Below the pieces are notes generated by a model. The model was not told where the DNA came from. It worked only from the letters and a program-made list of their open reading frames with translations, and made no database searches. A stretch of DNA of 64,000 nucleotides from the NCBI RefSeq assembly GCF_028737315.1, contig NZ_JAQZAO010000014.1, positions 1 to 64,000 on the forward strand, in the 5' to 3' direction. This document shows positions 15,124-55,250 of the stretch, one piece after another. The position numbers and the translations under genes were made by a program. Origin of the DNA: Actinomycetospora lemnae (lineage in GTDB: Bacteria > Actinomycetota > Actinomycetes > Mycobacteriales > Pseudonocardiaceae). Numbering within the stretch: position 1 is the stretch's first letter; each line of letters begins with the position of its first letter.

Positions 15124-15163
15124 GTGAGCGGACTCTTGGGCTATAGCTCCGAAGTCCGCTCAC
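15124..15163. repeat. 40-bp palindromic element family A, copy 1
   Basis: GTGAGCGGACT at the left pairs with AGTCCGCTCAC at the right (11 perfect bp). The middle is GGGCTATAGC-like and imperfectly paired. Same length, same ends and same centre as 53946-53985 and 55208-55247. Here it lies between divergent genes, next to a -10-like box, so it cannot be a simple terminator. Confidence 0.85.
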
Positions 15164-15164
15164 A

Positions 15165-15179
15165 TAAGATGAGGGCGTG
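15165..15179 (+). promoter_or_regulatory. -10 box with leaderless GTG of the broken MFS gene
   Basis: TAAGAT at 15165-15170 matches the actinobacterial TAnnnT consensus and is followed after 6 nt by GTG at 15177, the geometry of leaderless transcripts. The GTG opens a reading frame VQNLFRRR that meets TGA at 15201-15203 and then continues in frame into the MFS transporter. Confidence 0.5.
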
Positions 15180-15281
15180 CAGAACCTCTTCCGCCGCCGC
15201 TGACACCCGGTCCCGCGTGATGCGCGGGTCCCCCGCGGGTTCGGTGCCCGGGTCGTCGCCGTCGAGGCGCTCGGCCAGGCC

Positions 15282-16388
15282 GTGCCGCTCTACCCGCTCT
15301 ACGCGCTGCTCTTCGCCGACCACGGCCTGTCCGACGCGGCGATCTCCGCGCTGTTCGCCCTGTGGTCGGTGACGACGCTGGTCCTCGAGGTGCCCTCGGG
15401 CGCCTGGGCCGACGTCACGTCCCGACGCCGGATGCTCGCGGCGTCCGGCGTGCTGTCCACCGCGGCGTTCACACTGTGGGTGCTCCTGCCGAGCGCACCG
15501 GTCTTCGCGCTCGGGTTCGTGCTCTGGGGCGTCGGGACGGCGCTGGCCTCGGGCACGCTCGAGGCCCTGGCCTACGACGCCCTCGCGCGGTGGGACGCGA
15601 CCGACCGCTACGCCACCCTCATGGGCCGTGTCCGCGCCGGCTACCTCGGCGCGACGCTCGTGGCCACCGCCCTCGCCGCGCCGCTGGTCGCGATCGGCGG
15701 CTACGTCCTGCCCGGGCTGGTCGGGGCCGGTGCGACGCTGCTCTCCGCCGCGCTCGCGCTGACGCTGCCCGAGGAGGCCCGCGGGCCCCGGTCGGCGCGA
15801 TCCACCGTCCGGGCCGCGCTCGTCGCGTGGTGGGCGATGCTGCGCGACGGGGTCGGCGAGGTGTCGCGGGTCGCGCTGCTGCGCCGAGCCGTCGTGCTCA
15901 CCGCGCTCCTCACCGGGCTCATGGCCGTCGACGAGTACCTGCCCCTGCTCGCCGCCGACCACGGCGCGACGCCCGCGGCCACCGCGCTCGCCCTCACGGC
16001 GGTCGGTGTCGCCGAGACGGCCTGCGTGACCCTCGCCGGCCGCGTCGCTCGGGCCCGCGGTCCGGTGCTCGGGGCGCTGCTGGCCGGCTCGGCGATCGCG
16101 GTCGGCACGGGCGCCCTGTTGCCGCTCGGGCCCGGGTTCGCGCTCATCGCCGCGGGGTGGGGCGTCCTGCAGCTGCTGCTCGTCGTCGTCGAGACCCGGG
16201 TGCAGGACGCGGTGGTCGGCGAGGCCCGCGCCACCGTCACCTCGATGGCCGGCCTGGGCTCCGAGGCCGTCGGGCTCGGGGTGCTCGCCGTGGTCGGCAC
16301 GGGCTCGGTGTGGATCGCGCTCCCGGCGTTGATCGCGGGGTTGACCGTCCCGTTGCTGGTCCTGGCGGTGGTCGTGTCCCGGGAGTGA
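15282..16388 (+). CDS. MFS transporter, N-terminus interrupted by TGA
   Basis: From GTG 15282 the open frame gives 368 aa with about eleven hydrophobic segments and the cytoplasmic loop LEVPSGAWADVTSRRRML of major facilitator exporters. This start cuts the first membrane helix: the same frame upstream (GARVVAVEALGQA) clearly belongs to helix 1. It extends back to GTG 15177 through a TGA at 15201-15203, and no start codon exists between that TGA and 15282. Either the gene is a pseudogene or recent nonsense mutant, or it is translated from 15282 as a trimmed protein, or the base is a sequencing error. Substrate unknown. Confidence 0.7.
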   Translation: MPLYPLYALLFADHGLSDAAISALFALWSVTTLVLEVPSGAWADVTSRRRMLAASGVLSTAAFTLWVLLPSAPVFALGFVLWGVGTALASGTLEALAYDALARWDATDRYATLMGRVRAGYLGATLVATALAAPLVAIGGYVLPGLVGAGATLLSAALALTLPEEARGPRSARSTVRAALVAWWAMLRDGVGEVSRVALLRRAVVLTALLTGLMAVDEYLPLLAADHGATPAATALALTAVGVAETACVTLAGRVARARGPVLGALLAGSAIAVGTGALLPLGPGFALIAAGWGVLQLLLVVVETRVQDAVVGEARATVTSMAGLGSEAVGLGVLAVVGTGSVWIALPALIAGLTVPLLVLAVVVSRE

Positions 16389-16463
16389 CCGTCCGGGTCT
16401 GGTCGAACCCGGACGGTTGCTGCCATATTCATCACGTCGCGAACCCGACGGAGGGAACGGACC

Positions 16464-16895
16464 ATGCGCATCGCGGACCTGCTCGCACGGAAGGGGACCG
16501 CGGTGCTGACGGTCTCCCCCGACGATCCCGTGGCGTCGCTGCTCGCGGTGCTGGCCGAGCGCAACGTCGGCGCCGCGGTCGTGTGCGACGACGACGACCG
16601 GCTGGCCGGGATCGTCTCCGAGCGCGACGTCGTGCGGCACCTGCACCACCGCGGCGCGTCACTGCTCGAGGCCCCGATCTCGGAGATCATGACGACGGTG
16701 GTGGCCACCTGCCGCGCCGGCGACGACGTGCAGTCGCTGAGCCGCACCATGACCGAGCGTCGCATCCGCCACGTCCCGGTGCTCGACGAGCAGGAGAGGC
16801 TCGCGGGCATCGTCAGCATCGGCGACGTCGTCAAGAGCCGGATCGACCAGCTCGAGGAGCACCGCAGCCAGCTCGAGGCCTACATCTCGGGCTGA
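16464..16895 (+). CDS. CBS-domain pair protein
   Basis: 143 aa made almost entirely of two CBS domains (about residues 5-60 and 72-130; LAGIVSERDVVRHL and LAGIVSIGDVVKSRI are the characteristic ends). Such stand-alone Bateman modules bind adenine nucleotides or SAM and regulate other proteins. A start at ATG 16464 is preceded by GGAGGGAACGG. It is followed closely by an aldo/keto reductase on the same strand, 44 bp away, which may be co-transcribed. The ligand and target are unknown. Confidence 0.88.
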   Translation: MRIADLLARKGTAVLTVSPDDPVASLLAVLAERNVGAAVVCDDDDRLAGIVSERDVVRHLHHRGASLLEAPISEIMTTVVATCRAGDDVQSLSRTMTERRIRHVPVLDEQERLAGIVSIGDVVKSRIDQLEEHRSQLEAYISG

Positions 16896-16939
16896 CACGT
16901 CACCGTTCCGGGTGGCGCGGCCGCGGGTACGCGACCGGC

Positions 16940-17914
16940 ATGGACATGACCAGGTTGGGCAAGACCGAGCTGCAGGTGTCGCGGATCGCGTTCGGGACCT
17001 GGCAGGTCTCGGGCGAGTGGGGTTCCTACGACGCCGAGCAGGCGCAGCGGGCGATCCGCCACGCCCTGGACCTGGGCGTCAACTTCTTCGACACCGCCCA
17101 GGCCTACGGGTTCGGGCAGGCCGAGGAGGTGCTCGCGAACGCGCTGCGCGGCGAGCTGGACCGTGACCGCGACTCGGTGGTCATCGCCACCAAGGGCGGC
17201 ATCAACCCGGGCAGCGACAAGCCGCGCGACTCGAGCCGGGAGTACCTGCGCTCGGGCGTGGAGTCGTCGCTCAAGGCGATGAAGATCGACCACATCGACC
17301 TCTACCAGGTGCACTGGCCGGACACCGACACGCCGTTCGAGGACACGGCGGGCTACCTGCAGGAGCTCGTCGACGAGGGCAAGATCCGCCACGTCGGGGT
17401 GTCGAACTTCGACCAGGACCAGATGGCCGCGTTCGACCGCCGGCGCCCGGTGGAGACGCTGCAGCCGCCGTACCACCTGTTCCGCCGGCACATCGAGGAC
17501 GGCGTGCTGCCGTACGTCCGCGAGCACGACATCGGGACGCTGGTCTACAGCCCGCTCGGCTCGGGGCTGCTGACGGGGACGATGGACTCCTCGACGACGT
17601 TCGAGGACTCCGACTGGCGCTCGCAGGCGTCCGCCTTCCACGGCGACCAGTTCCGGACGAACCTCGAGGTCGTCGAGCGGCTCAAGTCGTTCGCGGCGGA
17701 CAAGGGCTGCGAGGTCTCGCAGCTCGCGATCGCATGGGTGCTCGCCCAGGACGGCATCGACGTCGCGATCGTCGGGGCCCGCTCCGACAGGAACATCGAG
17801 CGCTCGCTCGCCGCGGTCGACGTGCAGCTCTCGACCGACGACCTCGCCGAGATCGAGCGGATCACCGCCGACGGCGTGCAGGTCAGCGGCGCCTCGCCCG
17901 AGGGCGTCGCGTAG
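16940..17914 (+). CDS. Aldo/keto reductase
   Basis: 324-aa NADPH-dependent TIM-barrel oxidoreductase. The catalytic tetrad is Asp51 and Tyr56 (FFDTAQAYG), Lys85 (ATKGG) and His125 (YQVHWPD). The C-terminal coenzyme block AIVGARSDRNIERSLAAVD is also present. It resembles the general AKR families acting on aldehydes and sugars. A second ATG two codons on is possible. It follows the CBS protein on the same strand. Another aldo/keto reductase lies at 54163 but the two differ considerably and are not recent copies. Confidence 0.9.
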   Translation: MDMTRLGKTELQVSRIAFGTWQVSGEWGSYDAEQAQRAIRHALDLGVNFFDTAQAYGFGQAEEVLANALRGELDRDRDSVVIATKGGINPGSDKPRDSSREYLRSGVESSLKAMKIDHIDLYQVHWPDTDTPFEDTAGYLQELVDEGKIRHVGVSNFDQDQMAAFDRRRPVETLQPPYHLFRRHIEDGVLPYVREHDIGTLVYSPLGSGLLTGTMDSSTTFEDSDWRSQASAFHGDQFRTNLEVVERLKSFAADKGCEVSQLAIAWVLAQDGIDVAIVGARSDRNIERSLAAVDVQLSTDDLAEIERITADGVQVSGASPEGVA

Positions 17915-18002
17915 CGGGACGGGCACCCATCGTGGTCCTTGTCCAGGATCACGGAGTCCCACTACCGTACGTCGGGTCTTCCTCGCCGACGAAGGAGTCC
18001 CG

Positions 18003-18386
18003 ATGACCGCGTCCACCGCCACCACCGTCACGAACCTGGGCGTCGCCATGTTCGCCGTCGCCGACCAGGACGCCGCGATCGCCTTCTACACCGAGAAGCT
18101 CGGGTGGGAGCTGCGCGGCGACACCCGGTTCGGCGAGGACGGCGAGAACCGCTGGGTCGAGGTCGCCCCGCCGGGCTCCACCGCGCGTCTCGCGCTCAAC
18201 CCGCCGATGGGCGGGGAGCCCGGTGGCTGCGGCATCGGCGTGGAGACCCCGGACGCGCGGGCCGAGCACGCCCGCCTGCGCGACCTCGGCGTCGACGTCG
18301 ACGACGTCATGGACGCCCCGGGCGCCCCGACGCTGTTCATGATGCGCGACCCCGACGGCAACCACATCGCGGTGGTCCAGGTCTAG
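18003..18386 (+). CDS. VOC superfamily (glyoxalase/dioxygenase fold) protein
   Basis: 127 aa with AAGGAG upstream. VTNLGVAMFAVADQDAAIAFYTEKLGWELRGD opens the first beta-alpha-beta-beta-beta unit and DPDGNHIAVVQV closes the second, the standard vicinal-oxygen-chelate fold. The terminal metal-binding Glu of true glyoxalase I is replaced here by Val/Gln, so it may be a binding or resistance protein rather than an enzyme. The gene ends 4 bp before a 52-bp dispersed element. Confidence 0.82.
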   Translation: MTASTATTVTNLGVAMFAVADQDAAIAFYTEKLGWELRGDTRFGEDGENRWVEVAPPGSTARLALNPPMGGEPGGCGIGVETPDARAEHARLRDLGVDVDDVMDAPGAPTLFMMRDPDGNHIAVVQV

Positions 18387-18390
18387 GTGT

Positions 18391-18442
18391 CAGCGAAGTG
18401 CCGTTGCAGACGTTGAGTGTCCGCAACGGGACTTCGATCACC
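18391..18442. repeat. 52-bp dispersed element family D, copy 2
   Basis: GAAGTGCCGTTGC at the left and GCAACGGGACTTC at the right form a 13-bp stem with one mismatch, around a GACGTTGAGTGTC centre. Ends match 8845-8896 in direct orientation while the centre is inverted. The complement of GATCACC at its right end carries the TGA stop of the glycosyltransferase (18438-18440). It lies between convergent genes. Confidence 0.78.
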
Positions 18443-19604
18443 GCGCGAGCTCGGCCTCCACGACGTCCGCGGCGGCCGGCGCCCCGCCCCCGCGGCGGAC
18501 GAGGTCGCGCTGCTCGGCCAGGCGCGCCGCGACCTCGGGCGACGACGTCAGCTCGAGCAGCGCCGCCCGCAGCGTCTCCGGCGTCGCCTCCTCGGTCGGC
18601 ACCGTGCGGGCCACGCCCGCCGCCTCGAGCAGCGCGGCGTTGCCGAACTGGTCGACCGCCTGCGGGATCGGGATCATGGGAACGCCCTGGTAGAGCCCCT
18701 CGGCGCACCCGCCCATCCCGGCGTGGGTGACGAACGCGCTCGCCCGCCCGAGCACCCCGAGCTGCGGCACCCAGCGGTGGGCGGTGACGTGCTCGGGCAG
18801 CTCACCGAGCGCCGCGAGGTCGACGTGCGGGCCCACGGCCAGCACGACCTCCCAGCCCAGCGGCGCGAACGCCTCCGCGCAGGCCCGGAACAGGTCGGGG
18901 TGGTCGTGGTACGCCGACCCGAACGAGACGAGCACCAGCGGCCGCTCCGGCGCCGGCCACTGCTCCTGCGCCGCCCGGCGGTCGAGGTCGGGTCCGACGA
19001 AGGTGTAGACGTCCGGGTCGACCTTGTCCGCGAACGGCTGCAGCGTGCGCGGGATCTCGACGATCGACCGCCGCGGGCGACCGACGAACTGTTCCGGGTC
19101 GTCGTCGATGCCCTGCTCCGCGAGCCACGCCGCGAACCGCGCGAGGTAGGCCTGGTAGCCGGGCTCCCGCCGGAACGCGAGGTCGTCGGCGAGGTCGTCC
19201 TCGAAGCCCTCCCACGCGACCATCGCGGGGGAGAGCTGGATCGCCGGGATGCCCCAGCGGCGGGCGAGGACGAGCGCGGGATAGCCGCCGATGTCGTGGA
19301 GCGCGACGTCGGGGACGTCGTCACCCAGCGCCGCCTCGATCTGCGGCAGCGCGTGGACCGCCTCGTCGAGGAACAGCGCCGTGCCCGCGACGGGGTCGAC
19401 CGGCCATTGCTCGCCGCGGCCCTGGTCGGGCAGCACGGAGGTGTGGCGCAGCGGCGTCGCCCCGGTCTCGGCGACCATCTCGGCGAACGACGCGGGGATG
19501 GCGTAGGTGACCCGGTGGCCGCGCGCGACGAGCTCGGCGACGACGGGCAGGTGGGGGTGGGTGTGGCCGTGCGCGGCGACGCCGACCACGAGGACGTGGG
19601 CCAT
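18438..19604 (-). CDS. MGT/UGT-type glycosyltransferase
   Basis: 388-aa GT-B fold enzyme of family GT1. The N-terminal domain starts MAHVLVVGVAAHGHTHPHLPVV (acceptor side). The C-terminal domain has LVLVSFGSAYHD and the nucleotide-sugar signature region HRWVPQLGVLGRASAFVTHAGMGGCAEGL...PMIPIPQAVDQFGNAALL. This is the macrolide-inactivating/natural-product glycosyltransferase subgroup, which moves a sugar from UDP- or dTDP-sugar to a small hydrophobic acceptor. Lacking a biosynthetic cluster nearby, a detoxification role is plausible. The stop codon lies in a dispersed repeat. Confidence 0.88.
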   Translation of the reverse strand: MAHVLVVGVAAHGHTHPHLPVVAELVARGHRVTYAIPASFAEMVAETGATPLRHTSVLPDQGRGEQWPVDPVAGTALFLDEAVHALPQIEAALGDDVPDVALHDIGGYPALVLARRWGIPAIQLSPAMVAWEGFEDDLADDLAFRREPGYQAYLARFAAWLAEQGIDDDPEQFVGRPRRSIVEIPRTLQPFADKVDPDVYTFVGPDLDRRAAQEQWPAPERPLVLVSFGSAYHDHPDLFRACAEAFAPLGWEVVLAVGPHVDLAALGELPEHVTAHRWVPQLGVLGRASAFVTHAGMGGCAEGLYQGVPMIPIPQAVDQFGNAALLEAAGVARTVPTEEATPETLRAALLELTSSPEVAARLAEQRDLVRRGGGAPAAADVVEAELAR

Positions 19605-19868
19605 GGAGATCTCCGGGTACGGAGTGGACGAGGGCAGCGGCGGGCACGCGGACCACCGCCGGAGGTCGTCCGGCGGTGCCGCGGGCGGGCTCTCGTCAGC
19701 CGTAGATCTGCTGGATCACGACGCCGACGCTAGGAGGACCCGGCGCCTCGGGGCCACCGGTTTCCGGTGATCGGAGTACCGGGACGGACACCGGGTGTCG
19801 ATCAACCCAGCACGCCGGTCGGGGCGCGTCGCCGACACCCCTCGGTCGGGCAGGGCGACCCTGCCGGG
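19605..19868. other. Intergenic region, promoter of glycosyltransferase
   Basis: 264 bp between two minus-strand genes with no convincing ORF. CACCGG and CCGGTG (19755-19760 and 19764-19769) form a small inverted repeat that may be an operator. A 7-codon frame on the minus strand ending IQQIYG-stop was noticed but is too short to call. Confidence 0.4.
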
Positions 19869-20960
<1,092 letters not shown>

Positions 20961-20972
20961 CGCTGTAGCTCC

Positions 20973-21854
20973 CTACTTGACCGCGCCGAACGACAGGCCC
21001 TGCACCAGCTTGTTCTGCGCCACCCAGCCCGCGAGGATCACGGGCAGCGCGGCCAGGGTCGCCGCGGCGGAGAGCTGGGCCCAGTACAGGCCCTCCGAGG
21101 TGATGAATCCGACCAGGAAGACCGGCATGGTGCCGGCGTTGGCCGCGGTCAGGTTGACCGCGAAGAAGAACTCGTTCCACGCGAAGATCACGCAGATCAG
21201 CGCCGTGGCGAAGATGCCCGGCGAGATGATCGGCAGGACGATCTCGCGCAGCGTGCGCCACAGCGGGGCGCCGTCGATGCTCGCCTGCTCGAGCAGCTCG
21301 CCCGGCACCTCCAGGAAGAACGACCTCATCATCCACACCGCGATCGGCAGGTTCATCCCGGTGTAGAGGACGACCAGGGTCCAGATGTTGTCGAGCATGC
21401 CGATCTGGTTGACCACGACGTAGATCGGCACGATCACCGCGACCACCGGCAGCATCTTCGTGGAGATGAAGAAGAACAGGACGTCCTGGGTCTTCTTCAC
21501 CGGGCGCAGCGAGACCGCGAACGCGGCCGGGATCCCCAGGAGCAGCACGAGCAGGGTGGAGAACACCGTGGCGATCAGCGAGTTCGCCAGGTAGGGGCCG
21601 ACGCCGGCGGAGAAGACACCCTCGTACTGCTCCAGCGTCGGCTCGAAAATGATCTTCGGCGTCGTGGTGTAGGCGTCGGTCTCCTGCTTGAAGGAGGTCA
21701 GCACCATCCAGAAGACCGGGAAGAAGAACGCGATGCCGACGACCCAGGCGATGACGCCCAGCCAGACGTTGGCGGCGCTGCGCTTCTGACGGCGGGGCTC
21801 GGGCGGCGCCGCGGGCCCCTGCGTGTCGGGTGGAGTGCTCGTCGTGACCGCCAT
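20973..21854 (-). CDS. Carbohydrate ABC transporter permease (MalG/SmoG-like)
   Basis: 293 aa with six predicted membrane helices. The first is VWLGVIAWVVGIAFFFPVFWMVLTSFK. The EAA loop of permeases (LLEQASIDGAPLWRTLREIVLPIISPGI) binds the ATPase. The start ATG 21854 overlaps by one base the TGA of the upstream permease. It forms the membrane channel with the partner encoded just before it. The sequence type resembles the mannitol/sorbitol (Smo) and related polyol systems rather than maltose importers. Confidence 0.93.
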   Translation of the reverse strand: MAVTTSTPPDTQGPAAPPEPRRQKRSAANVWLGVIAWVVGIAFFFPVFWMVLTSFKQETDAYTTTPKIIFEPTLEQYEGVFSAGVGPYLANSLIATVFSTLLVLLLGIPAAFAVSLRPVKKTQDVLFFFISTKMLPVVAVIVPIYVVVNQIGMLDNIWTLVVLYTGMNLPIAVWMMRSFFLEVPGELLEQASIDGAPLWRTLREIVLPIISPGIFATALICVIFAWNEFFFAVNLTAANAGTMPVFLVGFITSEGLYWAQLSAAATLAALPVILAGWVAQNKLVQGLSFGAVK

Positions 21855-24168: not shown

Positions 24169-24270
24169 CGCGCCTCCCGCCCCGAACGACCACCATGGTG
24201 GAGCCGCACCGCGGCGACCGTGATGTGGGCCACGTGCGGTGGGGTGACCGTAAAGCTGCGCTCCGTGAGA

Positions 24271-24285: not shown

Positions 24286-24384
24286 ACTTCAGTTCCGGGT
24301 GGAGCGCGCACGGTGTGCGCGGGGTACAACTAGCGCGCACGCGGTGGGTCGTGGCTCGACGCCGCCGGAGGACGGGAGCCGGTC

Positions 24385-27618: not shown

Positions 27619-28134
27619 ATGAGCACGCTGATCCCCTGGGGCCCGCGCTTCGTCGACCCGTTCGCGCTGACCGACGCCCTGTTCCGCCGCCCGGCCGCCC
27701 GCGGCGACCGCGGCACCGCCTGGTACGCCCCGACCACCGACGTGGTGCGCGAGGGTGACGACGCCGTCGTCCGCCTCGAGCTCCCGGGCGTGGACGTGGC
27801 CAAGGACGTCACCGTCGAGGTCGAGGGCGGCCGCCTGACCGTCCGCGGCGAGCGCCGTGACGAGCAGTCCGGCGAGGGCTTCCGCCAGAGCCGCTACGGC
27901 TCGTTCCGCCGGACCTTCACGCTGCCCGAGCACGTCGACGGCGACGCGGTGTCCGCGTCGTACGACGCCGGCGTGCTGACGGTCCGCGTCGCCGGCGCCC
28001 ACGCGTCGGTCGAGGCCGGCGCCCGGCGCATCGCCATCGACGGCGTCTCCGCGCCGGAGTCGACCGAGTCGGCCGACTCGGCCGAGTCGGCCGAATCGGC
28101 CGAGGGCGGGGCCGGCGAGGGCAAGGCCGCCTGA
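27619..28134 (+). CDS. hsp20: Small heat shock protein, Hsp20/alpha-crystallin family
   Basis: 171 aa. The alpha-crystallin domain spans about residues 35-130 (DVVREGDDAVVRLELPGVDVAKDVTVEVEGGRLTVRGERR...YGSFRRTFTLPEHVDGDAVSASYDAGVLTVRV). The A-x-x-x-G-x-L element is present. The usual C-terminal I-x-I motif is represented by RRIAIDG. The tail is a low-complexity Ser-Ala-Glu stretch encoded by near-repeats of GAGTCGGCC. It is an ATP-independent holdase that binds unfolding proteins. It is preceded by a HAIR-like HspR site and followed by a strong terminator. Confidence 0.94.
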   Translation: MSTLIPWGPRFVDPFALTDALFRRPAARGDRGTAWYAPTTDVVREGDDAVVRLELPGVDVAKDVTVEVEGGRLTVRGERRDEQSGEGFRQSRYGSFRRTFTLPEHVDGDAVSASYDAGVLTVRVAGAHASVEAGARRIAIDGVSAPESTESADSAESAESAEGGAGEGKAA

Positions 28135-43915: not shown

Positions 43916-45072
43916 CCTCCGGCGATCCGAGCCCGCGCACGGTCGCCTCGGCGATGGCCGAGGCGGCCGTGGCGTGGATCGACGGTCTCGACGACGAGCA
44001 GCGCGCGATCGGCGTGTGGGACTGGCCGGGGTCGAAGGCCGCCGACGCCGAGCGCGTGCGCTGGTACTACACGCCGACCGACCACGGCGGCCTGACCGTC
44101 CACCAGCAGCGTCCCCACCAGCAGCGGGCGGGGATGCGACTGCTCGCCACCGGGCTGTCCGAGCCGGGCTACGTCAGCGCGGCGACGATCATGGGGCTGG
44201 AGAACGTCCTCGACCGCACCGAGGGCTTCGCCACCGGGTTCGCCCGCGATCGCGGCCGCGACCCCGGCATGTACTACCTGCGCGTCTTCGGCGACCCGTC
44301 GGGTGACGGGCCCTGGTCCTGGCGCTTCGGCGGGCACCACGTGTCGGTGAACCACCTGGTCGTCGGCGGCGAGGCCGTCGCCGGCAGCCCCTGCTTCCTC
44401 GGCGCGGACCCGATGGTCTCGCCGCTGCTCGGGGGCCGGGAGCTGCGCCCGCTCGGCGGGATCGAGGACACCGCCCGCGAGCTGCTGCACGCGCTCGACG
44501 CCGACCAGCGCCCCCGCGCCGTGCTGACCCCGACCGCGCCCGCCGACATCATCGGCGCCAACCGCGTGCGGCCCGGGCCCGGCGACCGCCTCATCCCGCT
44601 GCCCGACCTGTGGCGCGGGCACTTCGAGCAGGACCTCGAGGACCGGCTGTGGTCGATGCACGACGGGCTCGAGGCGCAGCTCGGCGTCACCGAGGCCGAC
44701 CGCGCGGCCACCGAGCTCACCGCCGCCCCGCGCGGCATCGCCGGGGCCGACCTCGACGCGGGCCAGCAGGAGATCCTGCGCCGCCTCCTCGACACCTACG
44801 TCGGGCGGATGCCGCCCGGGCTCGTCGAGCGCGAGCGGGCCCGGTTCGACGGTGGCGCCCTCGACGCCGTGCACTTCGCGTGGGCCGGCGGGGCCGAGCG
44901 CGGGGAGCCGCACTACTACCGCCTGCAGGGCCCCCACCTGCTCGCGGAGTGGGACAACACCCAGCGCGGCGTCAACCACGCCCACTCCGTCTGGCGCGAC
45001 CCCGAGCGCGACTTCGGGCTCGACCTGCTGGCCGAGCACCTCGCGCTCCACCACTCCGAGCACCACCCGTGA
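43912..45072 (+). CDS. DUF3500 domain protein
   Basis: 386 aa from a GTG overlapping the ABM stop by 4 bp. It is rich in conserved Trp/His: WDWPGSKAADAERVRWYYTPTDHGGLTV, WSWRFGGHHVSVNHLVVGG, FAWAGGAERGEPHYYRLQGPHLLAEWDNTQRGVNHAHSVWRDPERDFG. These are diagnostic of DUF3500, whose function is not known. The His- and Asp-rich C-terminal block (WDNTQ...NHAHSVWRDP) looks like a metal-site or catalytic centre. Its own stop overlaps the carboxylesterase GTG, so the three genes are tightly coupled. Confidence 0.88.
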   Translation: MTSGDPSPRTVASAMAEAAVAWIDGLDDEQRAIGVWDWPGSKAADAERVRWYYTPTDHGGLTVHQQRPHQQRAGMRLLATGLSEPGYVSAATIMGLENVLDRTEGFATGFARDRGRDPGMYYLRVFGDPSGDGPWSWRFGGHHVSVNHLVVGGEAVAGSPCFLGADPMVSPLLGGRELRPLGGIEDTARELLHALDADQRPRAVLTPTAPADIIGANRVRPGPGDRLIPLPDLWRGHFEQDLEDRLWSMHDGLEAQLGVTEADRAATELTAAPRGIAGADLDAGQQEILRRLLDTYVGRMPPGLVERERARFDGGALDAVHFAWAGGAERGEPHYYRLQGPHLLAEWDNTQRGVNHAHSVWRDPERDFGLDLLAEHLALHHSEHHP

Positions 45073-46571: not shown

Positions 46572-46581
46572 GGAGGAACCG

Positions 46582-46863: not shown

Positions 46864-46901
46864 CGCGTGATCCCCGCGTCGGCAGCGGGCACAGGACGGA
46901 C

Positions 46902-47084: not shown

Positions 47085-47088
47085 CGCG

Positions 47089-47916: not shown

Positions 47917-47952
47917 CGGGAGATGTCAGCCTCTCCCCGCGAGGATGGCGAC

Positions 47953-48345: not shown

Positions 48346-48350
48346 GCGGG

Positions 48351-49193
48351 TCACGTGTCGTGGTGCGGGCCGGGGTGGGTCCGCCACTCCTGGAGGCGTT
48401 CGCTGCTGCGCAGGAGGCGCAGCGCCGTGGTGACCCCCAGCCCACCCACCACGTTCCCGGCGACCGACCAGGCGAAGAACACGATCCAGTTCCCGTAGCC
48501 GTACCCACCGCCGGCGTGGATGCCGCCGAAGATGAACAGGGTGTCGAGCACCGAGTGGTACATCGACAGCCCCGCGACGAGGAAGGCCACGGCGACCGAG
48601 GCCACGACCTTCGCGACGTCGTTGTCGGTGCCGTTGCGCATGCGGGTCAGCAGGGTCATGGCGACGCCGGCGAGGACGGCGAGGAGGAAGGTCGAGAGGG
48701 TCAGGGACGACGTCGCGAACGTGGCGCCGTTCCGTACGGCGCCGGAGCGGATCGCCGGGAAGGCGGTGACCACCGCCCACATCGTGACCCACCCTCCGAC
48801 GAGGTTGCCCAGCAGCGTCAGGGCCCAGAAGCGCACCAGCTGTCCGTAGGTCGCCTCCTTGGCGGCGACGACGACCACCGGGACGAGGAAGCCCTCGGTG
48901 AACAGCTCGCTGTTGCCGAGCAGCAGGGCGATGAAGCCGATCGAGAACGCGAGACCGGCGAGGAGCTTGGACCCGGTCGCCTGCTCGACACTGAGGAAGG
49001 CGAGGACACCGAGCGCGATCTCGACCCCGGCGATCGTCCCGCTGGCCAGCAGCTCGACCGGCGTGCGGTAGAGGCGGGGCCGCCCCTTCTCCACCACCTG
49101 GTCGAACGTGCGCTCCACCTCGTGCTCGCGGATCGCGTCGTGGCGGCCCTGGGAGTCACGCTCGACCGCCGTCGTGTCGTCCTCGGCACTCAT
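48351..49193 (-). CDS. Formate/nitrite transporter family channel
   Basis: 280 aa with six membrane helices. GTIAGVEIALGVLAFLSVEQ, GFIALLLGNSELFTEGFLVPVV (the F-T-E-N/G pore element) and SMYHSVLDTLFIFGGIHAGGGYGYGNWIVFFAWSVAGNVVGG define the FNT fold, close to the YfdC subgroup with an extended N-terminus. FNT channels are pentameric and pass formate, nitrite or hydrosulfide. The cargo here is not predictable, and no formate or nitrite enzyme is adjacent. Confidence 0.88.
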   Translation of the reverse strand: MSAEDDTTAVERDSQGRHDAIREHEVERTFDQVVEKGRPRLYRTPVELLASGTIAGVEIALGVLAFLSVEQATGSKLLAGLAFSIGFIALLLGNSELFTEGFLVPVVVVAAKEATYGQLVRFWALTLLGNLVGGWVTMWAVVTAFPAIRSGAVRNGATFATSSLTLSTFLLAVLAGVAMTLLTRMRNGTDNDVAKVVASVAVAFLVAGLSMYHSVLDTLFIFGGIHAGGGYGYGNWIVFFAWSVAGNVVGGLGVTTALRLLRSSERLQEWRTHPGPHHDT

Positions 49194-49244
49194 GAGCGCC
49201 CGGTCTGCCCGATGGATCCACCCGCCGACACCTACGGTCGGCCG

Positions 49245-49724
49245 ATGGCGTTCACGACCGACCCCGACGGCACCCACCGCTACCGCGCGACGTGCACGTG
49301 GTCCGGCTCGACCGGGGCCGGCTACGACGGCTACGGGCGCGCCCACCGCGTCGAGGCCCCGCCCGCCGCGACCGCGCTGGCACTGTCCAACGACCCGACG
49401 CTGGGCGGCGACGCCGCGCTCCTGGACCCCGAGCAGCTGGTCCTCGCGGCGGCGTCGTCGTGCCAGCTGCTGTCGTTCCTCGCGATCGCGGCGCGGGCGC
49501 GCATCGACGTCACCGCCTACCGGGACGACGCCGAGGCGACGATGTCGCACGGCGAGGGCCCGGCGCGGATCGCGGCGATCGTGCTGCACCCGCAGATCAC
49601 CGTGGCGGCGGGCCCGAGCGTCCCGCGGGTGGAGCGGCTGGTGCACCTGGCCCACCAGGAGTGCTACATCGCCAACAGCCTCGCCACCCCGGTCACGGTG
49701 GATCCGGTGCTCACGAGGGGGTCA
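49245..49724 (+). CDS. OsmC family peroxiredoxin-like protein lacking its stop codon
   Basis: From ATG 49245 (or 49212) the frame encodes about 160 residues of an OsmC/Ohr-type protein. TLGGDAALLDPEQLVLAAASSCQLLSFLAIAARARIDVTAYRDDAEATM carries the conserved helix and cysteine (SSCQ). RLVHLAHQECYIANSLATPVTVDPVL has the second cysteine of the organic-hydroperoxide site. A stop is expected near 49720 but is absent: the frame stays open for a further 3.6 kb to 53345 across the antisense strand of the next gene. The end given is where homology stops. Confidence 0.72.
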
Positions 49725-52700
49725 GGGCAGCAGCTCCGCCAGGCGGGCGCGGTAGCGGGCGACGTTGTCGAGCTTGATCTGCTCGTAGCCCCGGACCATG
49801 TCCGGCAGGGCGGCGATCTCGACGGCGCGATCCACGTCGTCGAGCGCCAGCAGCTGCGGCACCAGCGCCCGGTACTCCGCCACCAGCTCCCGCTCCACGC
49901 GCCGCACCTCGGCCACGCCGAACGGGTCGAGGCGCGTCCCGCGCAGGCGGCGCATCGCGCGCAGCGTCCGGTAGCCCGGCCGGAACCAGCGGCCCAGCGT
50001 GATCTTGCGCTGCATGCCCGCCGCCCGGAGCACCGGCGGGTGGAGCTTCCACGCGTACCGGGCGCCCTCGCCGAACTGCGCGCGCACCGAGGCCTCGAGC
50101 GCCGGGTCGAGCGACAGGCGGGCGACCTCGTACTCGTCCTTGTACGCCATGAGCTTGTACAGCCCGGTGGCGATCGCCTCGGCGAGCCGCGGGTCGGCGT
50201 CGACGGTCCCGGCGACGACCGAGGCGTAGGACCGCGCGTAGTCGGCGTCCTGGTAGGCGACGAGCTCGGGCACCCGGATCGCGACCAGGCGCTCCAGCTC
50301 GCTGCCCGCCGGCGCCCCGATCGACGCGACGATCTCCGCGGCCTCCGCCGCCCCGCGCGCGGTCAGGCCCGGGACCCCGGTGTCGGGACCCGTGCCCGTG
50401 ACCCGCGTGACGACCGCCGCGAACGCCTCCGGGTCGGCCACCGACTGCCGCCCGCGCCGGAACGCCTGGAGGTTCTGCTGCACCGCCGCGCCGTTGAGCG
50501 TGAACGCCTCCTCGATCGCCGACGCCGGCAGCGGCAGCGCGCCGGCCTGGAACGCGGCGCCGAGCAGGAACGTCAGCGCGAACTGGTCGTCGCCGAACAG
50601 GGCGTCGGCCAGCGCGCGGGCGTCGACGACGACCCCGACGTCGCGCCGCACCCGGTCGGTGATCCGCCGCAGCACCGCGTCGGCATCCGGGAACGACACC
50701 GACGGGTCGACGACCATCGCTCCCGTCGCGATCTTCGCCGACGACACCGCGGCGACCGTCCGCCACGACGCGCAGGTCGCGAGGTTCGCCGGGTCGGCGG
50801 CGACGAGCAGGTCGGCGCCGAGGTAGAGGTCGCACTCCCCCTCCGCGGCGCGCCCCGCCGCCTCGCCCGGGCGACGGCTGACCTTGACGTCGGACACCAC
50901 CGCGCCGCCCTTCTGGGCCAGCCCGGTCTGGTCGAGGCCGCGCACGTGGCGCCCGGCCACGAGCCCGGCGGTGGCGAGCACCTGCGACACCGTCGTCACG
51001 CCCGTCCCGCCGATGCCGGCGAGGCGCACCGTGAACGACTCGTCGTCGACCACCGCGGGCGGCGTCGGCAGCGCGTCGGCGCCCAGCGGCTCGAGCACCG
51101 GCGGGCCCGCGGCCGTGCCGGGCTCGACGGTCAGGAACGCCGGGCAGTCGCCGTCGAGGCAGGAGTAGTCCTTGTTGCACGACGCCTGGTGGATGCGGGT
51201 CTTGCGGCCGAACTCGGTGTCGACCGGCGTCACCGACAGGCAGTTCGACGTCTGCCCGCAGTCGCCGCAGCCTTCGCAGACCCGCTCGTTGATCATGACG
51301 CGGGTCGACGGGTCGGCGAGCTGGCCGCGCTTGCGCTTGCGCCGCTTCTGGGCCGCGCACTCCTGGTCGTGGATGAGCACGGTGACGCCCGGGGTGTCCG
51401 CGAGGACGCGCTGGGCCTCGGGGTAGCGCGAGCGGTCCCAGACCTCGACGCCCTTCGCCAGCCGCACACCGCGGTAGCGCGAGCGGTCCTCGGTGGTGAC
51501 GAGGATCCGCGTGACGCCCTCGGCGGCGAGGCTCTGCGTGAGTGCCGGCATCGACAGCGCACCGACGGCGTCCTGCCCGCCGGTCATGGCGGCCGCACCG
51601 TTGTGCAGCAGGCGGAAGGTCATGTGCGCGCCCGCCGCCACGGCCGCGCGCACCGCGAGCGAGCCCGAGTGGTGGAAGGTCCCGTCGCCCATGTTCTGGA
51701 CGAAGTGGTCGGCGTCGACGAACGGCGCCATGCCGAGCCAGTGCGCGCCCTCGCCGCCCATCTGCGTCAGCCCGGTGACCTCGCCGACCTGCTCCTCGGG
51801 CATCAGCAGCACCATCGTGTGGCAGCCGATGCCGGCGCCGACCAGCGAGCCGTCGGGGATCGCGGTGGTCGAGGTGTTGTGGGGGCAGCCCGAGCAGTAG
51901 AACGGCGTGCGCTTCGCGCCGTCGACCGGCGTCAGCGACAGGTCGATGCGGCTCCTCTCTCGGGCCTGCCGCGCCTTCTCGTCGCGCCACGCCCGCACCG
52001 ACGGCACGTCGCCGTGGGCGAGCAGGCGCTCGCCGAGGCGGCGGGCGACGACGTCGGGGTCGAGGTCGCCGGCCTCGGGGAACATCGCCGCGCCGTCGGG
52101 GCCGCGCTTGCCGTGCACCCGCGGGGCGTCGTGGCGCCCGTAGAGCCGGTCCTTGATCTGCGTCTCGAGGAACGCCCGCTTCTCCTCGACGACGACGATC
52201 TCGTCGAGGCCCTCGGCGAAGCGGTCGACGACGTCGTGGTCGAGGGGCCAGGGCATGCCGACGCGCAGCAGGCGCACGCCGCGGCGCACGAGCTCGGCGT
52301 CGTCGAGGCCGAGGGTGTCGAGCGCCTGGCGCAGGTCGAGCCAGCTCTTGCCCGCGGCCACGACGCCGATCCGCGCCGGTCCGGTGCCGACGATCCGGTC
52401 GAGGCCGTTGGCGGCGGCGTAGCGACGGGCGAGCTCGAGCCGGGCGCGGTAGAGGTCGCGCTCGATCGGCCCCAGCGAGGGCTGCAGGAGCACCGCCGAC
52501 GGGGTGTGCACGTACGGGCGGCCGTCGATCGTCGTGTCGGGGACGACCGGGAGCAGCCGGTCGGGGTGGAGCTCGACGGTGCCCGAACCGTCGGCGACCG
52601 CGGTGACCATCTTCAGCGCGGTCCACAGCCCGCTCACCCGGCTGAGCGCGACGGCGTGGCGGCCGAGGTCGAGGACGTCCTGGGAGTCCGCGGGGTAGAG

Positions 52701-53270
52701 CACCGGGACGGCCATGTCCGCGAGCGCGGCCTCCGACGCGCTGGGCACGCTCGACGACTTCGCCGCCGGGTCGTCGCCGACGAACGCGACGGCGCCGCCG
52801 CGGGGGTGGGTGCCGGTGAGGTTCGCGTGGCGCAGGGCGTCGGTGGCGCGGTCGAGGCCCGGCGCCTTGCCGTACCAGTAGCCGACGACGCCGTCGCGGG
52901 TCAGGCTGCCGGTGGCCGCCGCGAGCTGGGTGCCCTCGACCGCGGTCAGCGCGATCTCCTCGTTGAGCCCCGGTGCGAAGACGACGTCGTGCTCGGCGAG
53001 CAGGTCGCGGTGGCGCGCGAGCTCGAGGTCGTAGCCGGCCAGCGGCGAGCCCTCGTAGCCCGAGACGTAGCCGCCGGTGCGCAGGCCCGCGGCGCGGTCG
53101 GCGCGGTGCTGGTCGAGCGGCAGGCGGACCAGCGCCTGCACGCCGGTGAGGTGCACGCGCCCGTGCGTCATCGCGTAGCGGTCGCGCAGCGACACCGGAC
53201 GGCGGGGCGGCTCGTCCCCGGCGCCCCCGAAGGGGACGTCGAAGACGGGCGGGCGGACGTCGACGGTCAT
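49722..53270 (-). CDS. Indolepyruvate ferredoxin oxidoreductase, fused alpha-beta type
   Basis: 1182 aa from ATG 53270 with GAGGAGG upstream. The N-terminal half carries the pyruvate-oxidoreductase domain I (SGYEGSPLAGYDLEL) and the thiamine-diphosphate domain (FYCSGCPHNTST, GGEGAHWLGMAPFV, NMGDGTFHHSGSLAVRAAVAAG). A ferredoxin-like insertion with CEGCGDC and later Cys residues (QTSNC, ASCNKDYSCLDGDCP) binds [4Fe-4S]. The C-terminal gamma domain opens GIGGTGVTTVSQVLATAG. It oxidatively decarboxylates aryl pyruvates to aryl-acetyl-CoA with ferredoxin reduction. The divergent Lrp regulator suggests amino acid control. Confidence 0.94.
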   Translation of the reverse strand: MTVDVRPPVFDVPFGGAGDEPPRRPVSLRDRYAMTHGRVHLTGVQALVRLPLDQHRADRAAGLRTGGYVSGYEGSPLAGYDLELARHRDLLAEHDVVFAPGLNEEIALTAVEGTQLAAATGSLTRDGVVGYWYGKAPGLDRATDALRHANLTGTHPRGGAVAFVGDDPAAKSSSVPSASEAALADMAVPVLYPADSQDVLDLGRHAVALSRVSGLWTALKMVTAVADGSGTVELHPDRLLPVVPDTTIDGRPYVHTPSAVLLQPSLGPIERDLYRARLELARRYAAANGLDRIVGTGPARIGVVAAGKSWLDLRQALDTLGLDDAELVRRGVRLLRVGMPWPLDHDVVDRFAEGLDEIVVVEEKRAFLETQIKDRLYGRHDAPRVHGKRGPDGAAMFPEAGDLDPDVVARRLGERLLAHGDVPSVRAWRDEKARQARERSRIDLSLTPVDGAKRTPFYCSGCPHNTSTTAIPDGSLVGAGIGCHTMVLLMPEEQVGEVTGLTQMGGEGAHWLGMAPFVDADHFVQNMGDGTFHHSGSLAVRAAVAAGAHMTFRLLHNGAAAMTGGQDAVGALSMPALTQSLAAEGVTRILVTTEDRSRYRGVRLAKGVEVWDRSRYPEAQRVLADTPGVTVLIHDQECAAQKRRKRKRGQLADPSTRVMINERVCEGCGDCGQTSNCLSVTPVDTEFGRKTRIHQASCNKDYSCLDGDCPAFLTVEPGTAAGPPVLEPLGADALPTPPAVVDDESFTVRLAGIGGTGVTTVSQVLATAGLVAGRHVRGLDQTGLAQKGGAVVSDVKVSRRPGEAAGRAAEGECDLYLGADLLVAADPANLATCASWRTVAAVSSAKIATGAMVVDPSVSFPDADAVLRRITDRVRRDVGVVVDARALADALFGDDQFALTFLLGAAFQAGALPLPASAIEEAFTLNGAAVQQNLQAFRRGRQSVADPEAFAAVVTRVTGTGPDTGVPGLTARGAAEAAEIVASIGAPAGSELERLVAIRVPELVAYQDADYARSYASVVAGTVDADPRLAEAIATGLYKLMAYKDEYEVARLSLDPALEASVRAQFGEGARYAWKLHPPVLRAAGMQRKITLGRWFRPGYRTLRAMRRLRGTRLDPFGVAEVRRVERELVAEYRALVPQLLALDDVDRAVEIAALPDMVRGYEQIKLDNVARYRARLAELLP

Positions 53271-53393
53271 GGCGGACCTCCTCGGTGGACCGGCGCACGG
53301 GCGCGGGGTGGGTCCCGTGTCCCGGGCCACACGTCGTGGCGGTGACCGAGAAGCTAGGGAGTTACTCGCCAGTGGTCTATCGTCGTGTTCCAG

Positions 53394-53414
53394 GACTGGG
53401 CCATTGGCCCAGTC
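53394..53414. promoter_or_regulatory. Lrp/AsnC operator (21-bp palindrome)
   Basis: GACTGGGCCA-T-TGGCCCAGTC is perfectly symmetric. A second GGCCAATGG half-match occurs at 53439-53448. It lies between the divergent oxidoreductase and Lrp-type genes, close to where both promoters should be, consistent with autoregulation and control of the neighbour. Confidence 0.72.
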
Positions 53415-53466
53415 GATCGGCCTCCGCGCTGATCCCCTTCGGCCAATGGACGAGCCAGGAGCCGGC

Positions 53467-53949
53467 ATGGACCTCGACGACCTCGACCGGGCGCTGCTGC
53501 TCGCGCTCCTCGAACGGCCGCGGGTCGGCCTGCGCGAGCACGCGCGGGCACTCGGCATCGCGCGGGGCACCGCGCAGGCCCGGTTCCTGCGCCTGCAGGA
53601 GCGCGGGGTGATCGTCGGGTTCGAGCCACAGGTCGACCCGGAGGCCCTCGGCTACGACGTCACCGCGTTCGTCACCCTGCACATCACCCAGGGCCGGCTC
53701 GACGCCGTGGCCGAGCACCTCGCGACGATCCCGGAGGTCGTGGAGGCGCACAGCATCACCGGCGACGGCGACCTGTGGGCCCGCGTGGTCGCCCGGACCA
53801 ACGCCCACCTGGAGCACGTGGTCCAGGGGATCATCGGCACCCCGGGCGTGGAGCGCACCCGCACCGAGATCGCGCTGACCGAGCGCGTGGCCCACCGCGT
53901 GCTGCCGCTCGTGCGCGCCCTGCCGCGGGGTGCGCGTCCGCGCACGTGA
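53467..53949 (+). CDS. Lrp/AsnC family transcriptional regulator
   Basis: 160 aa from ATG 53467 with AGGAG upstream (ATG 53446 is a weaker alternative). LDDLDRALLLALLERPRVGLREHARALGIARGTAQARFLRLQERGVIVGFEP is the N-terminal helix-turn-helix; YDVTAFVTLHITQGRLDAVAEHLATIPEVVEAHSITGDGDLWARVVA is the RAM ligand domain that binds an amino acid. It is divergent from the indolepyruvate oxidoreductase and likely senses aromatic amino acids or their keto acids. The TGA (53947-53949) lies within a 40-bp palindrome. Confidence 0.93.
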   Translation: MDLDDLDRALLLALLERPRVGLREHARALGIARGTAQARFLRLQERGVIVGFEPQVDPEALGYDVTAFVTLHITQGRLDAVAEHLATIPEVVEAHSITGDGDLWARVVARTNAHLEHVVQGIIGTPGVERTRTEIALTERVAHRVLPLVRALPRGARPRT

Positions 53950-53985
53950 GCAGGAAGAGGTGCCACAGCACTTCCTCCTGCTCAC
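53946..53985. repeat. 40-bp palindromic element family A, copy 2
   Basis: GTGAGCAGGA at the left and TCCTGCTCAC at the right; 16 of 19 positions pair around a 2-nt loop. The Lrp stop codon TGA is formed by its GTGAGC end. See 15124-15163 and 55208-55247. Confidence 0.88.
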
Positions 53986-54100
53986 CTGACCGCAGGGCAC
54001 CCTGTCGGACCGATGGGGTCTCGACGACGGCCGGCGGGGCGGCGGTCACCAGCTCAGCGTGGCGCTGGGGCGCTGCTCCGACCGGGGCGGTGGCGAAAGC

Positions 54101-54136
54101 GGAACGTCCTTCCGTATAGTTCCGGAAGAACGTTCC
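54101..54136 (+). promoter_or_regulatory. Promoter-operator of the aldo/keto reductase
   Basis: GGAACGTCCTTCCG (54101-54114) and CGGAAGAACGTTCC (54123-54136) are inverted repeats with one mismatch, spaced 8 bp. The spacer starts with TATAGT (54115-54120), a near-consensus -10, so a bound repressor dimer would cover the promoter. A TetR-family protein is the likely binder (one is encoded downstream at 55225, though its own operator looks different). Confidence 0.72.
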
Positions 54137-54162
54137 GTTTCGCGTGCACCCCGGAGGACGAC

Positions 54163-55191
54163 ATGCGCTACCGCACCCTCGGCCGGACAGGCATCAAGGT
54201 CAGCCCCTACTCACTCGGCGTGCTGCTGCTCGGGTCGGCGCGCGGCAACCCCGACCAGGAGGACTCGATCCGCCTCGTCCACCGCGCCCTCGACACGGGG
54301 ATCAACCTGGTCGACACCGCCGACGTCTACGGCGGCGGCGCGTCCGAGGAGGTCCTCGGCAAGGCCCTGATCGGGCGCCGCGACGACGTCGTCCTCGCCA
54401 CGAAGATGGGCCGCCCGATGGGCGACGACCCGAACCGCCAGGGGGCGTCGCGGCGCTGGATCACCACCGCCGTCGAGGAGTCGTTGCGCCGCCTGCAGAC
54501 CGACCACATCGACCTCTACCAGGTCCACCGGCCCGACCCGGACACCGACGTCGAGGAGACCCTCTCGGCGCTCACCGACCTCGTGCGCAGCGGCAAGGTC
54601 CGCGCGATCGGGTCGTCGACCATGCCCGCGTCGGACATCGTCGAGGCGCAGTGGGTGGCCGAGCGCCGCGGCCTCGAGCGCTTCCGCACCGACCAGCCGC
54701 CCTACTCGATCCTCAACCGCGGCATCGAGCGCGAGGTGCTGCCGGTCGCCGAGCGCTACGGGATGGGGACGCTGGTCTGGGGCCCGCTCGCGCAGGGGAT
54801 GCTCACCGGCCGCGCCCGGCGCGGGCAGCCCACCGACCTCGTCCGCGCCGACCTCTTCCGCGTGTTCCACGACGAGGCCCGCCTCGCGACGATCGAGCAG
54901 CTCATCACCCTGGCCGACGAGGCGGGCCTGCGCCTCACCCACCTCGCGATGGCGTTCGCGATCACGCACCCGGGCGTCAGCACGGCCCTGCTCGGCCCGC
55001 GCACCCAGGAGCAGCTCGACGACCTGCTCGCCGGCCTCGACGTCGTGCTGCCCGACGACGTCCTCGACCGCATCGACGAGATCGTCCCGCCGGGCACCGA
55101 GGTCGGGCGGCTCGACCAGGACTACCTCCCGCCCGCCCTGACCACGACCGCGCGGCGCCGCCGCCCGGTCGACGAGCGCGCCGCCGCGTGA
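54163..55191 (+). CDS. Aldo/keto reductase
   Basis: 342 aa from ATG 54163 with CGGAGGA upstream. MRYRTLGRTGIKVSPYSLG opens the barrel. The catalytic residues are in NLVDTADVYGGG (Asp, Tyr), LATKMG (Lys) and YQVHRPD (His). ALLGPRTQEQLDDLLAGLDVVL binds the cofactor phosphate. It resembles the YajO/AKR13-like group acting on aldehydes. It is preceded by a strong operator-promoter and lies between two copies of the 40-bp palindrome. Confidence 0.92.
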   Translation: MRYRTLGRTGIKVSPYSLGVLLLGSARGNPDQEDSIRLVHRALDTGINLVDTADVYGGGASEEVLGKALIGRRDDVVLATKMGRPMGDDPNRQGASRRWITTAVEESLRRLQTDHIDLYQVHRPDPDTDVEETLSALTDLVRSGKVRAIGSSTMPASDIVEAQWVAERRGLERFRTDQPPYSILNRGIEREVLPVAERYGMGTLVWGPLAQGMLTGRARRGQPTDLVRADLFRVFHDEARLATIEQLITLADEAGLRLTHLAMAFAITHPGVSTALLGPRTQEQLDDLLAGLDVVLPDDVLDRIDEIVPPGTEVGRLDQDYLPPALTTTARRRRPVDERAAA

Positions 55192-55204
55192 GGTGCGCTC
55201 CGCG

Positions 55205-55250
55205 CAGGTGAGCAGGAAGAAGGGCTACAGCCCTTCTTCCTGCTCACCTG
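55205..55250. repeat. 40-bp palindromic element family A, copy 3 (perfect 22-bp stem)
   Basis: The 40-bp core (55208-55247) is extended by 3 bp on each side: CAGGTGAGCAGGAAGA then AGGGCT, loop AC, and an exact complement. On the minus strand it encodes the last eight residues of the TetR protein and its TAG stop. It lies between convergent genes. Confidence 0.9.

Follow-up and report, generated by a model that had tools for sequence, protein, structure and literature searches.

Palindromes and remnants in the window

The stretch of Actinomycetospora lemnae DNA analysed here (the window, 64 kb) carries three 40-bp palindromes with exact GTGAGC/GCTCAC ends. Their coordinates agree with those of a first-pass annotation, and the contexts it described also hold, namely between divergent genes (15124), after a gene (53946) and between convergent genes (55208). 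With no mismatches allowed, these ends occur in the window at the three copies only; a looser pattern with 3 mismatches gave 44 matches against 69.7 expected, which is below chance and uninformative alone. With 47 copies from the genome we built a covariance model, which recovered the three window copies at E < 1e-8 on both strands. The next best sites in the window were weak (43940-43969, E 0.003; 11850-11878, E 0.17), and Rfam gave no match within the window at gathering thresholds. Two remnants mark places where the sister genome G005 holds a full copy (Table 1).

Table 1. Palindromes, flanks and remnants in the window
Feature	Position	Strand	Context and pairing
Remnant: left mini-hairpin GGGTGCCTGACGGCAG without core	12437..12464	+	Full copy at same place in G005
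Copy 1, class II core (GGACT...)	15124..15163		16/20 Watson-Crick pairs; between divergent methyltransferase-domain gene and MFS gene, a minority location (4/85)
Left mini-hairpin flank of copy 2, GGTGCGCGTCCGCGCAC	53929..53945		Identical letters in G005 and G008 orthologues
Copy 2, class I core	53946..53985		16/20 Watson-Crick pairs; TGA at 53947-53949 is stop codon of AsnC/Lrp-domain gene 53269-53949
Right flank of copy 2, CTGACCGCAGGGCACC	53986..54001
Left mini-hairpin flank of copy 3, GGTGCGCTCCGCGCAG	55192..55207
Copy 3, class I core	55208..55247		19/20 Watson-Crick pairs; between convergent aldo/keto reductase gene (ends 55191) and TetR-domain gene (minus strand, open frame ends 55225 inside palindrome)
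Right mini-hairpin flank of copy 3, CTGGCCGGAGGCCACC	55248..55263
Decayed class I copy	56728..56775	-	Core and left flank mostly lost, extended right flank retained; full copy here in sister G005

A family of covarying hairpins at gene ends

The three window palindromes are members of a genome-wide, REP-like, non-autonomous family of 40-bp hairpins with 98 exact-end copies. The genome search proposed in the annotation returned copy numbers far above expectation: GTGAGC-N28-GCTCAC occurs at 98 sites in the 6.06-Mb A. lemnae genome (G000), against 0 for a reversed-pattern control. All 17 genus relatives examined carry the pattern, with 31-192 copies each. Outside the genus it occurs patchily in a few other genera of the same family (Pseudonocardiaceae); copy-rich genomes hold 66, 23 and 13 copies in genus g5 (0-3 in copy-poor ones) and 86, 51 and 44 in genus g48 (1-6 in copy-poor ones). 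Length and ends are fixed, the constancy of the ends being a product of the chosen search pattern; a second end dialect, GTGCGT..ACGCAC, counts 34 copies in G005, 65 in G006 and 0 in G000.

The compensating arm changes first seen in the window extend to the whole family, with 205 double-change cells versus 70 in shuffled data, a covariation score of 0.567 (0.148 shuffled, 0.10-0.15 slid) and pairing at positions 7-18 of 0.834, compared with 0.476 on average when arms are swapped. Conservation, high copy number and covariation of the palindromes are in accordance with the REP or small mobile element type that had been suggested. The shared GGCTAYAGC-like centre was borne out in part: the GC on either side is near-invariant (C18 and G23 in at least 90%), whereas the 4-nt centre varies. 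Hybrid arms are also present, as both arms lie at most 1 nt from arms of other copies in 5 of 15 badly paired copies. Where a mini-hairpin stands on both sides, the left and right stem letters differ in 21 of 24 copies (mini-hairpin background rate 14% per side). The minimum-energy fold of the two window class I units is one long stem, which weakens a strict three-hairpin model for this class. By eye, the tetranucleotides beside 85 copies differ from copy to copy, with gctc, gcag, gtac and ccat among them. A MITE of a DDE transposase would be expected to show a target-site duplication; no constant duplicated flank was seen by eye in these copies, and in comparisons between genomes just one site differs by the clean unit length.

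We read 85 copies in context, relying on our own codon-usage gene calls and not on a standard gene finder. These short, high-copy palindromes are intergenic in 76 of the 85 cases; 41 copies lie between convergent, 31 between tandem and 4 between divergent genes, and 8 lie inside genes. Facing gene 3' ends fall within 30 nt of a copy in 108 of 113 instances, which places the hairpin just past the stop codon, and at 43 of these 113 gene ends the TGA in GTGAGC itself supplies the stop. Tandem copies follow the upstream stop (30/31 within 30 nt) rather than the downstream start (15/31). This placement suggests that the hairpins probably mark transcript 3' ends, where they may end transcripts from both sides or protect their 3' ends; a function of this kind would lead gene ends to retain a hairpin without constraining its sequence. 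None of 168 sides has a T-tract (at least 4 T in 8 nt), and the copies are therefore not textbook intrinsic terminators. The view that termination alone does not explain the family is upheld by this absence and by the genic copies (8/85), whereas the divergent copy on which it had partly leaned is exceptional, 72 of the 76 intergenic copies lying between convergent or tandem genes.

Kept positions and changed cores

Among the eight coding copies, six encode a VSELPSYRSEVRSR-like peptide and three lie in frame within Pfam matches (AMP-binding, GATase_4, PfkB). At the PfkB-gene site, both flanks were found in 11 genomes; eight have the palindrome, in an identical 80-nt interval and with seven different cores, and three distant ones are without it. 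A second coding site, followed in 15 genomes, has the palindrome in nine, with eight cores, and none in six distant ones. At these two loci in the distant genomes, family matches reached E 0.017 at best. Core and flank distances are uncorrelated at the PfkB site (r = 0.03, 21 pairs, G008 omitted) and at the second site (r = -0.11, 36 pairs). At the former, G005 and G006 have an identical core with flanks 20% apart, and in the G000/G005 pair 14 of 40 core positions differ with flanks 8.6% apart.

The same pattern of kept position and changed core is observed between G000 and G005 across orthologous pairs: at least 10 of 40 bases differ in 11 of 19, with flanks mostly 87-99% identical. In 16 of the 19 pairs one or both genomes have a core that is closer to another copy than to its orthologue, a count favoured by the large number of copies available for comparison. 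Core exchange is not everywhere and arm repair is not fast, because 8 of the 19 pairs have fewer than 10 differing bases and one hybrid (L059) retains an unpaired core in both species.

Flank bases are altered together with the core at L026 and L045, and at L035 class, core and flanks have all changed, i.e., the whole unit; these cases equally fit insertion of a new element into an old one. Broken or older ends are not enriched near copies (16 of 14740 flank positions versus 162 of 184175 farther off, ratio 1.23), and we did not take this ratio as a signal of excision scars.

Proposed copy-in, competing explanations and known systems

In our judgement the chances are evenly balanced that cores at kept positions differ through overwriting of one copy by another, in place and via the constant ends. 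A copy folded as a hairpin would stall replication, and the nascent strand could then switch to another copy where the end hexamer and the inner GC are shared, copy the donor core and exit through the mirror-image end. A template switch in the centre would yield copies with hybrid arms, and a switch from one arm to the other within a single copy would make it palindromic again. Class I copies may move as a 72-bp unit of mini-hairpin, 40-bp core and mini-hairpin, as suggested by one empty site (L282/L333) with a length difference of exactly 72 bp; at eight other absent sites the differences were 10-65 bp. To our knowledge, template switching over 6-8 bp has not been documented as a routine process when the loci are far apart. 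Copy-in is proposed here from comparison of genomes, in which no exchange event was caught in progress.

An unlikely but still considerable alternative is that the hairpins are mobilised by a transposase or recombinase with a target preference for existing copies, new elements thereby displacing old ones at the same address. Intact copies are indeed missing in both directions, at 4 of 23 matched G000 sites in G005 and at 6 of 23 matched G005 sites in G000. In the G005 counterpart of L012, a CGCTCAC next to the new palindrome looks like the right end left over from an older one, and the simultaneous change of class, core and flanks at L035 also speaks for displacement. The enzyme searches argue against it. 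The Y1_Tnp profile (PF01797), positive in 5 of 14 control genomes, gave no match in any of 18 genus genomes, three of them just 59-84% complete. RVT_1 was above cut-off in none of nine genus genomes tested, with one sub-threshold match in G006; elsewhere it was found in three of three copy-rich and three of six copy-poor genomes of g5, and was absent in all seven g48 genomes and in G030. On these results, a reverse transcriptase source (retron or group II intron) was rejected. In addition, no autonomous element bounded by the arms as terminal repeats, no full-length relative enclosing a transposase gene as expected for a MITE of a DDE transposase, and no family arms flanking a gene were recognised among 304 fetched sequences: five raw inverted arm pairs with up to 3 mismatches looked chance-like by eye, and 14 raw lone-arm matches comprised five whole hybrid copies, one degenerate copy and eight chance-like coding matches.

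We regard it as improbable that the copies are ordinary two-sided terminators under selection, where any hairpin serves and the sequence drifts by compensating mutations. The anchoring at gene 3' ends is consistent with such terminators, as is an unrelated long hairpin that G005 has in the same place at the L061 junction. However, termination needs neither constant ends nor constant length, T-tracts are absent, core change occurs at two of the sites inside genes too (8/85 copies), and core identity (G005/G006) and difference (G000/G005) at the PfkB site run counter to flank distances.

Mobilisation as REP elements by a RAYT (Y1 HUH) transposase, the partner proposed in the first-pass annotation, is very unlikely and was rejected as far as PF01797 can tell: REPs, as the available part of PMC3733652 describes them, agree in size, copy number, post-gene location and the occasional coding copy, but the profile gave no match in the 18 genus genomes or in copy-rich G021 and G030, was found in copy-poor relatives only, and no constant GTAG or CGTC tag stands beside the hairpin. 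Equally remote is a set of binding sites for a dimeric DNA-binding or nucleoid protein reading the GTGAGC ends, as twofold symmetry, fixed spacing and constant ends (the last by choice of search pattern) would suit it but inner-pair covariation and stop-codon placement are left unexplained.

Returning to copy-in, we tentatively propose, with somewhat less than even confidence, that the address is inherited vertically and the content is not, such that, inside genes and at gene ends, a previously undescribed copy-in via 6-bp ends overwrites cores; a literature search, with subscription papers mostly outside its reach, returned nothing describing such elements. If true, one sequence dialect can replace another genome-wide while flanking DNA changes by 6-9%. 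Compensating changes in stems are normally read as selection for an RNA fold, and the same signal is present here inside protein genes. This usual inference can fail, since covariation in protein genes comes with whole-core turnover at fixed positions. The family provides host genes with stop codons and in-frame peptides, and, with dozens of recognisable sites in each genome of several related species, it is suited to measuring homogenisation of short dispersed palindromes without a known transposase.

According to the accessible portion of PMC3733652, REPs (GTAG- or CGTC-tagged) are 20-40 bp, high-copy, gene-downstream elements in convergent or unidirectional intergenic regions and sometimes in genes, and CGTC REPs are said to be without a dedicated transposase. 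The hairpins described here are similar in size, copy number, gene-downstream location and in that no dedicated transposase was found; in contrast to the REPs of that portion, they have no constant tetranucleotide tag, are symmetric, with 6 constant bp at either end, occur in a genus in which no Y1 gene was found and change their cores at kept positions. Rickettsia palindromic elements, as covered by the available part of PMC2229807, are 105-146 bp and fused in frame into conserved protein genes. Our palindromes share the in-frame location in such genes, but are 40 bp (72 bp with flanks), lie mainly at gene ends, belong to actinobacteria and have swapped cores. Different REP classes occupy the same chromosomal place beside orthologous RAYT genes in related strains (PMC3686654, in part); those are tied to the transposase gene, whereas these hairpins stand at dispersed positions without that transposase. 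Finally, template switching re-establishes the pairing of arms and produces compensated changes of several bases within one inverted repeat, as far as the available sections of PMC8794818 and PMC8604942 describe it, and the exchange between dispersed copies is the extension that we propose here.

Copy number and distribution

The three 40-bp palindromes described in the first-pass annotation were borne out, all lying in the window with exact GTGAGC and GCTCAC ends. In the genome that carries the window (G000; 6.06 Mb, 30 contigs), a search for GTGAGC-N28-GCTCAC returned 98 sites, and the pattern read backwards none. We read 85 of these as copies; 12 sites enter the count only, and C25:171428 was excluded because it is not palindromic. 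All 17 genus relatives carry 31-192 sites each by the same end-pattern count.

In a family-wide sample of 200 genomes, 10 of them from the same genus, at least 10 sites were counted in 8 of the 190 others. Three genomes of genus g5 have 66, 23 and 13 sites (0-3 in the other seven), three of g48 have 86, 51 and 44 (1-6 in the other seven), the single g14 genome has 72 and one g3 genome 12, while order-level relatives have 0-3 sites, with controls there giving 0-2. Among the 80 matches listed of 111 named records, 75 are Actinomycetospora, Pseudonocardia or Saccharopolyspora, and the hits in the remaining five pair poorly, at 8-14 of 20 positions. We regard it as virtually certain that the family is real.

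Arm pairing, classes and gene context

An alignment of 47 copies was ungapped over 40 columns, the outer six bases per side being invariant by choice of the search pattern, and the 4-nt centre was bordered by an almost invariant C on its left and G on its right. Paired cells made up 93.7% across 18 pairs. The compensating arm changes noticed in the first-pass annotation hold across these copies, with 205 double-change cells versus 70 in shuffles and a covariation score of 0.567 versus 0.148 shuffled (0.10-0.15 in every slid control); the bare count of inner pairs changed on both sides (11 of 12) showed no excess over shuffles (10.6). Across all 85 copies, pairing at positions 7-18 was 0.834, compared with 0.476 when whole arms were swapped among copies.

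Two classes are visible among the copies read. Class I has AG or AC after the end, often a GTGC..GCAC centre, and GGTGCGCTCCGCGCAG-like and CTGCGCGGAGCGCACC-like mini-hairpins as flanks, whose left and right stems are unlike in 21 of the 24 copies having both; the best predicted fold of the two class I units in the window is one long stem. Class II is flanked by C-runs and G-runs.

By our own gene calls, the 85 copies divide into 41 flanked by convergent genes, 31 by tandem genes and 4 (window copy 1 included) by divergent genes, with 8 more inside genes and 1 at a contig end. Gene 3' ends facing a copy lie within 30 nt of it in 108 of 113 cases, and for 43 of the 113 the TGA of GTGAGC serves as the stop codon. 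Tandem copies are anchored to the upstream stop (30/31 within 30 nt), the downstream start being as close in only 15/31. No T-tract follows the copies. A 3'-end role of the hairpins appears fairly likely.

An open frame runs through the eight copies inside genes, six of which encode a HVSELPSYRSEVRSRG-like stretch, the stretches of loci L045 and L065 being unlike it.

Family copies and neighbouring features (window positions unless a locus is named)
Feature	Position	Observation
Window copy 1	15124-15163	
Window copy 2	53946-53985	
Window copy 3	55208-55247	
Decayed copy	12437-12464	full version in G005
Decayed copy	56728-56775	full version in G005
Resembles degenerate family copy	115-154, minus strand	right arm broken; no family-model score at E 1 or better
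Repeated palindromic stretch	28051-28112	GGCCGAGTC type
Hairpin	16381-16424	arms GACCGTCCGGGT / ACCCGGACGGT; MFS gene end; ordinary terminator candidate
Imperfect 40-bp palindrome	54099-54138	15 of 20 pairs, without family ends; upstream of aldo/keto reductase gene; perhaps an operator
Paired class II palindromes	L024, right flank; L129:1708-1806	about 10-20 bp apart, second degenerate
GTCAGCCGTGGGCCACCGCTGAC-like repeats	L129, site 7828	in palindrome-free distant members G016, G014, G001; perhaps another repeat family
L028 copy		inside AMP-binding match (Pfam)
L067 copy		inside GATase_4 match (Pfam)
L073 copy		inside PfkB match (Pfam)
L027 copy		between domain matches (Pfam)
L080 copy		between domain matches (Pfam): HpcH/HpaI aldolase and Orn/Arg decarboxylase either side, one open frame; possible gene fusion through the palindrome
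L045, L065 copies		outside matched part (Pfam)
L008 copy		at end of matched part (Pfam)

Position and core in related genomes

Between G000 and the sister-species genome G005, 19 copies, window copies 2 and 3 included, could be matched by both flanks, which are 78-99% identical (mostly >87%). In 11 of the 19 pairs at least 10 of the 40 bases differ, with a maximum of 22, and in the other eight 2-8 differ. For 16 of the 19, another copy in at least one genome is closer to the core than the orthologue, a count helped by the large pool of copies compared. A twentieth pair, L055, is also changed; at L035 the class has switched, flanks included, and at L052 the core alone has changed within kept mini-hairpins. 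At window copy 2 the relative G008 has a different core but keeps the left mini-hairpin and the end of the gene; G010, G011 and G017 have no copy at the orthologous gene ends.

Both flanks of a site in a PfkB-domain gene, within a 17-kb collinear stretch, were found in 11 of 18 genomes; eight have a palindrome, with seven different cores and an interval of always 80 nt, and three distant genomes have none. At a second coding site, with both flanks in 15 genomes, nine have a palindrome, with eight different cores and an interval of 71-80 nt in steps of 3, and six distant genomes have none. The family model, run on eight loci of distant genomes, gave a best E of 0.017. Core and flank distances were uncorrelated (r = 0.03 for 21 pairs and -0.11 for 36): G005 and G006 share an identical core with flanks 20% apart, and between G000 and G005, whose flanks are 8.6% apart, 14 of the 40 core bases differ. 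We are confident in this pattern of kept position with changed core.

The ends vary as well. At both coding sites those of G005 are GTGCGT..ACGCAC, a form with 34 copies in G005, 65 in G006, 51 in G015, 9-21 in five other relatives, 0-2 in the remaining nine and none in G000. Since G000 carries GTGAGC cores at both tested G005 places of this type, the difference is at least partly replacement rather than deletion; the GTGCGT core common to G006, G010 and G002 at the second site would indicate its direction.

Of 23 matched copies each way, 4 from G000 have no intact counterpart in G005 and 6 from G005 none in G000. These counts are not rates, since the two comparisons overlap and copy content was the reason for choosing some of the stretches. 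A first labelling gave 8 and 8 absent; at four and two of these, respectively, a copy is still recognisable in 39-bp, hybrid or cut-off form. The length difference at absent sites is exactly 72 bp at one and 10-65 at eight others. At L340, the G005 counterpart of L061, an unrelated long hairpin (arm GCAGCGAACGGGTATCTCG) occupies the same gene junction.

Candidate routes of core change

A RAYT partner, which the first-pass annotation suggested looking for, is excluded as far as the PF01797 profile can tell, and a reverse transcriptase is unlikely as the mover, which leaves template switching via the constant ends or an enzyme that replaces old copies in place. We lean slightly towards template switching, by which copying via the constant ends would overwrite the cores; the enzyme is nearly as likely. 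RecA needs some 20-30 bp of shared sequence, and class II copies seem to have too little in common for it, which favours template switching, as do the changes of core within genes that nonetheless hold the 40-bp length and the reading frame, and the half-and-half copies (5 of 15 badly paired ones). Template switching is further favoured because it is known to homogenise the arms of inverted repeats (PMC8604942, PMC8794818). We regard these palindromes as a new REP-like family that turns over in an unusual way.
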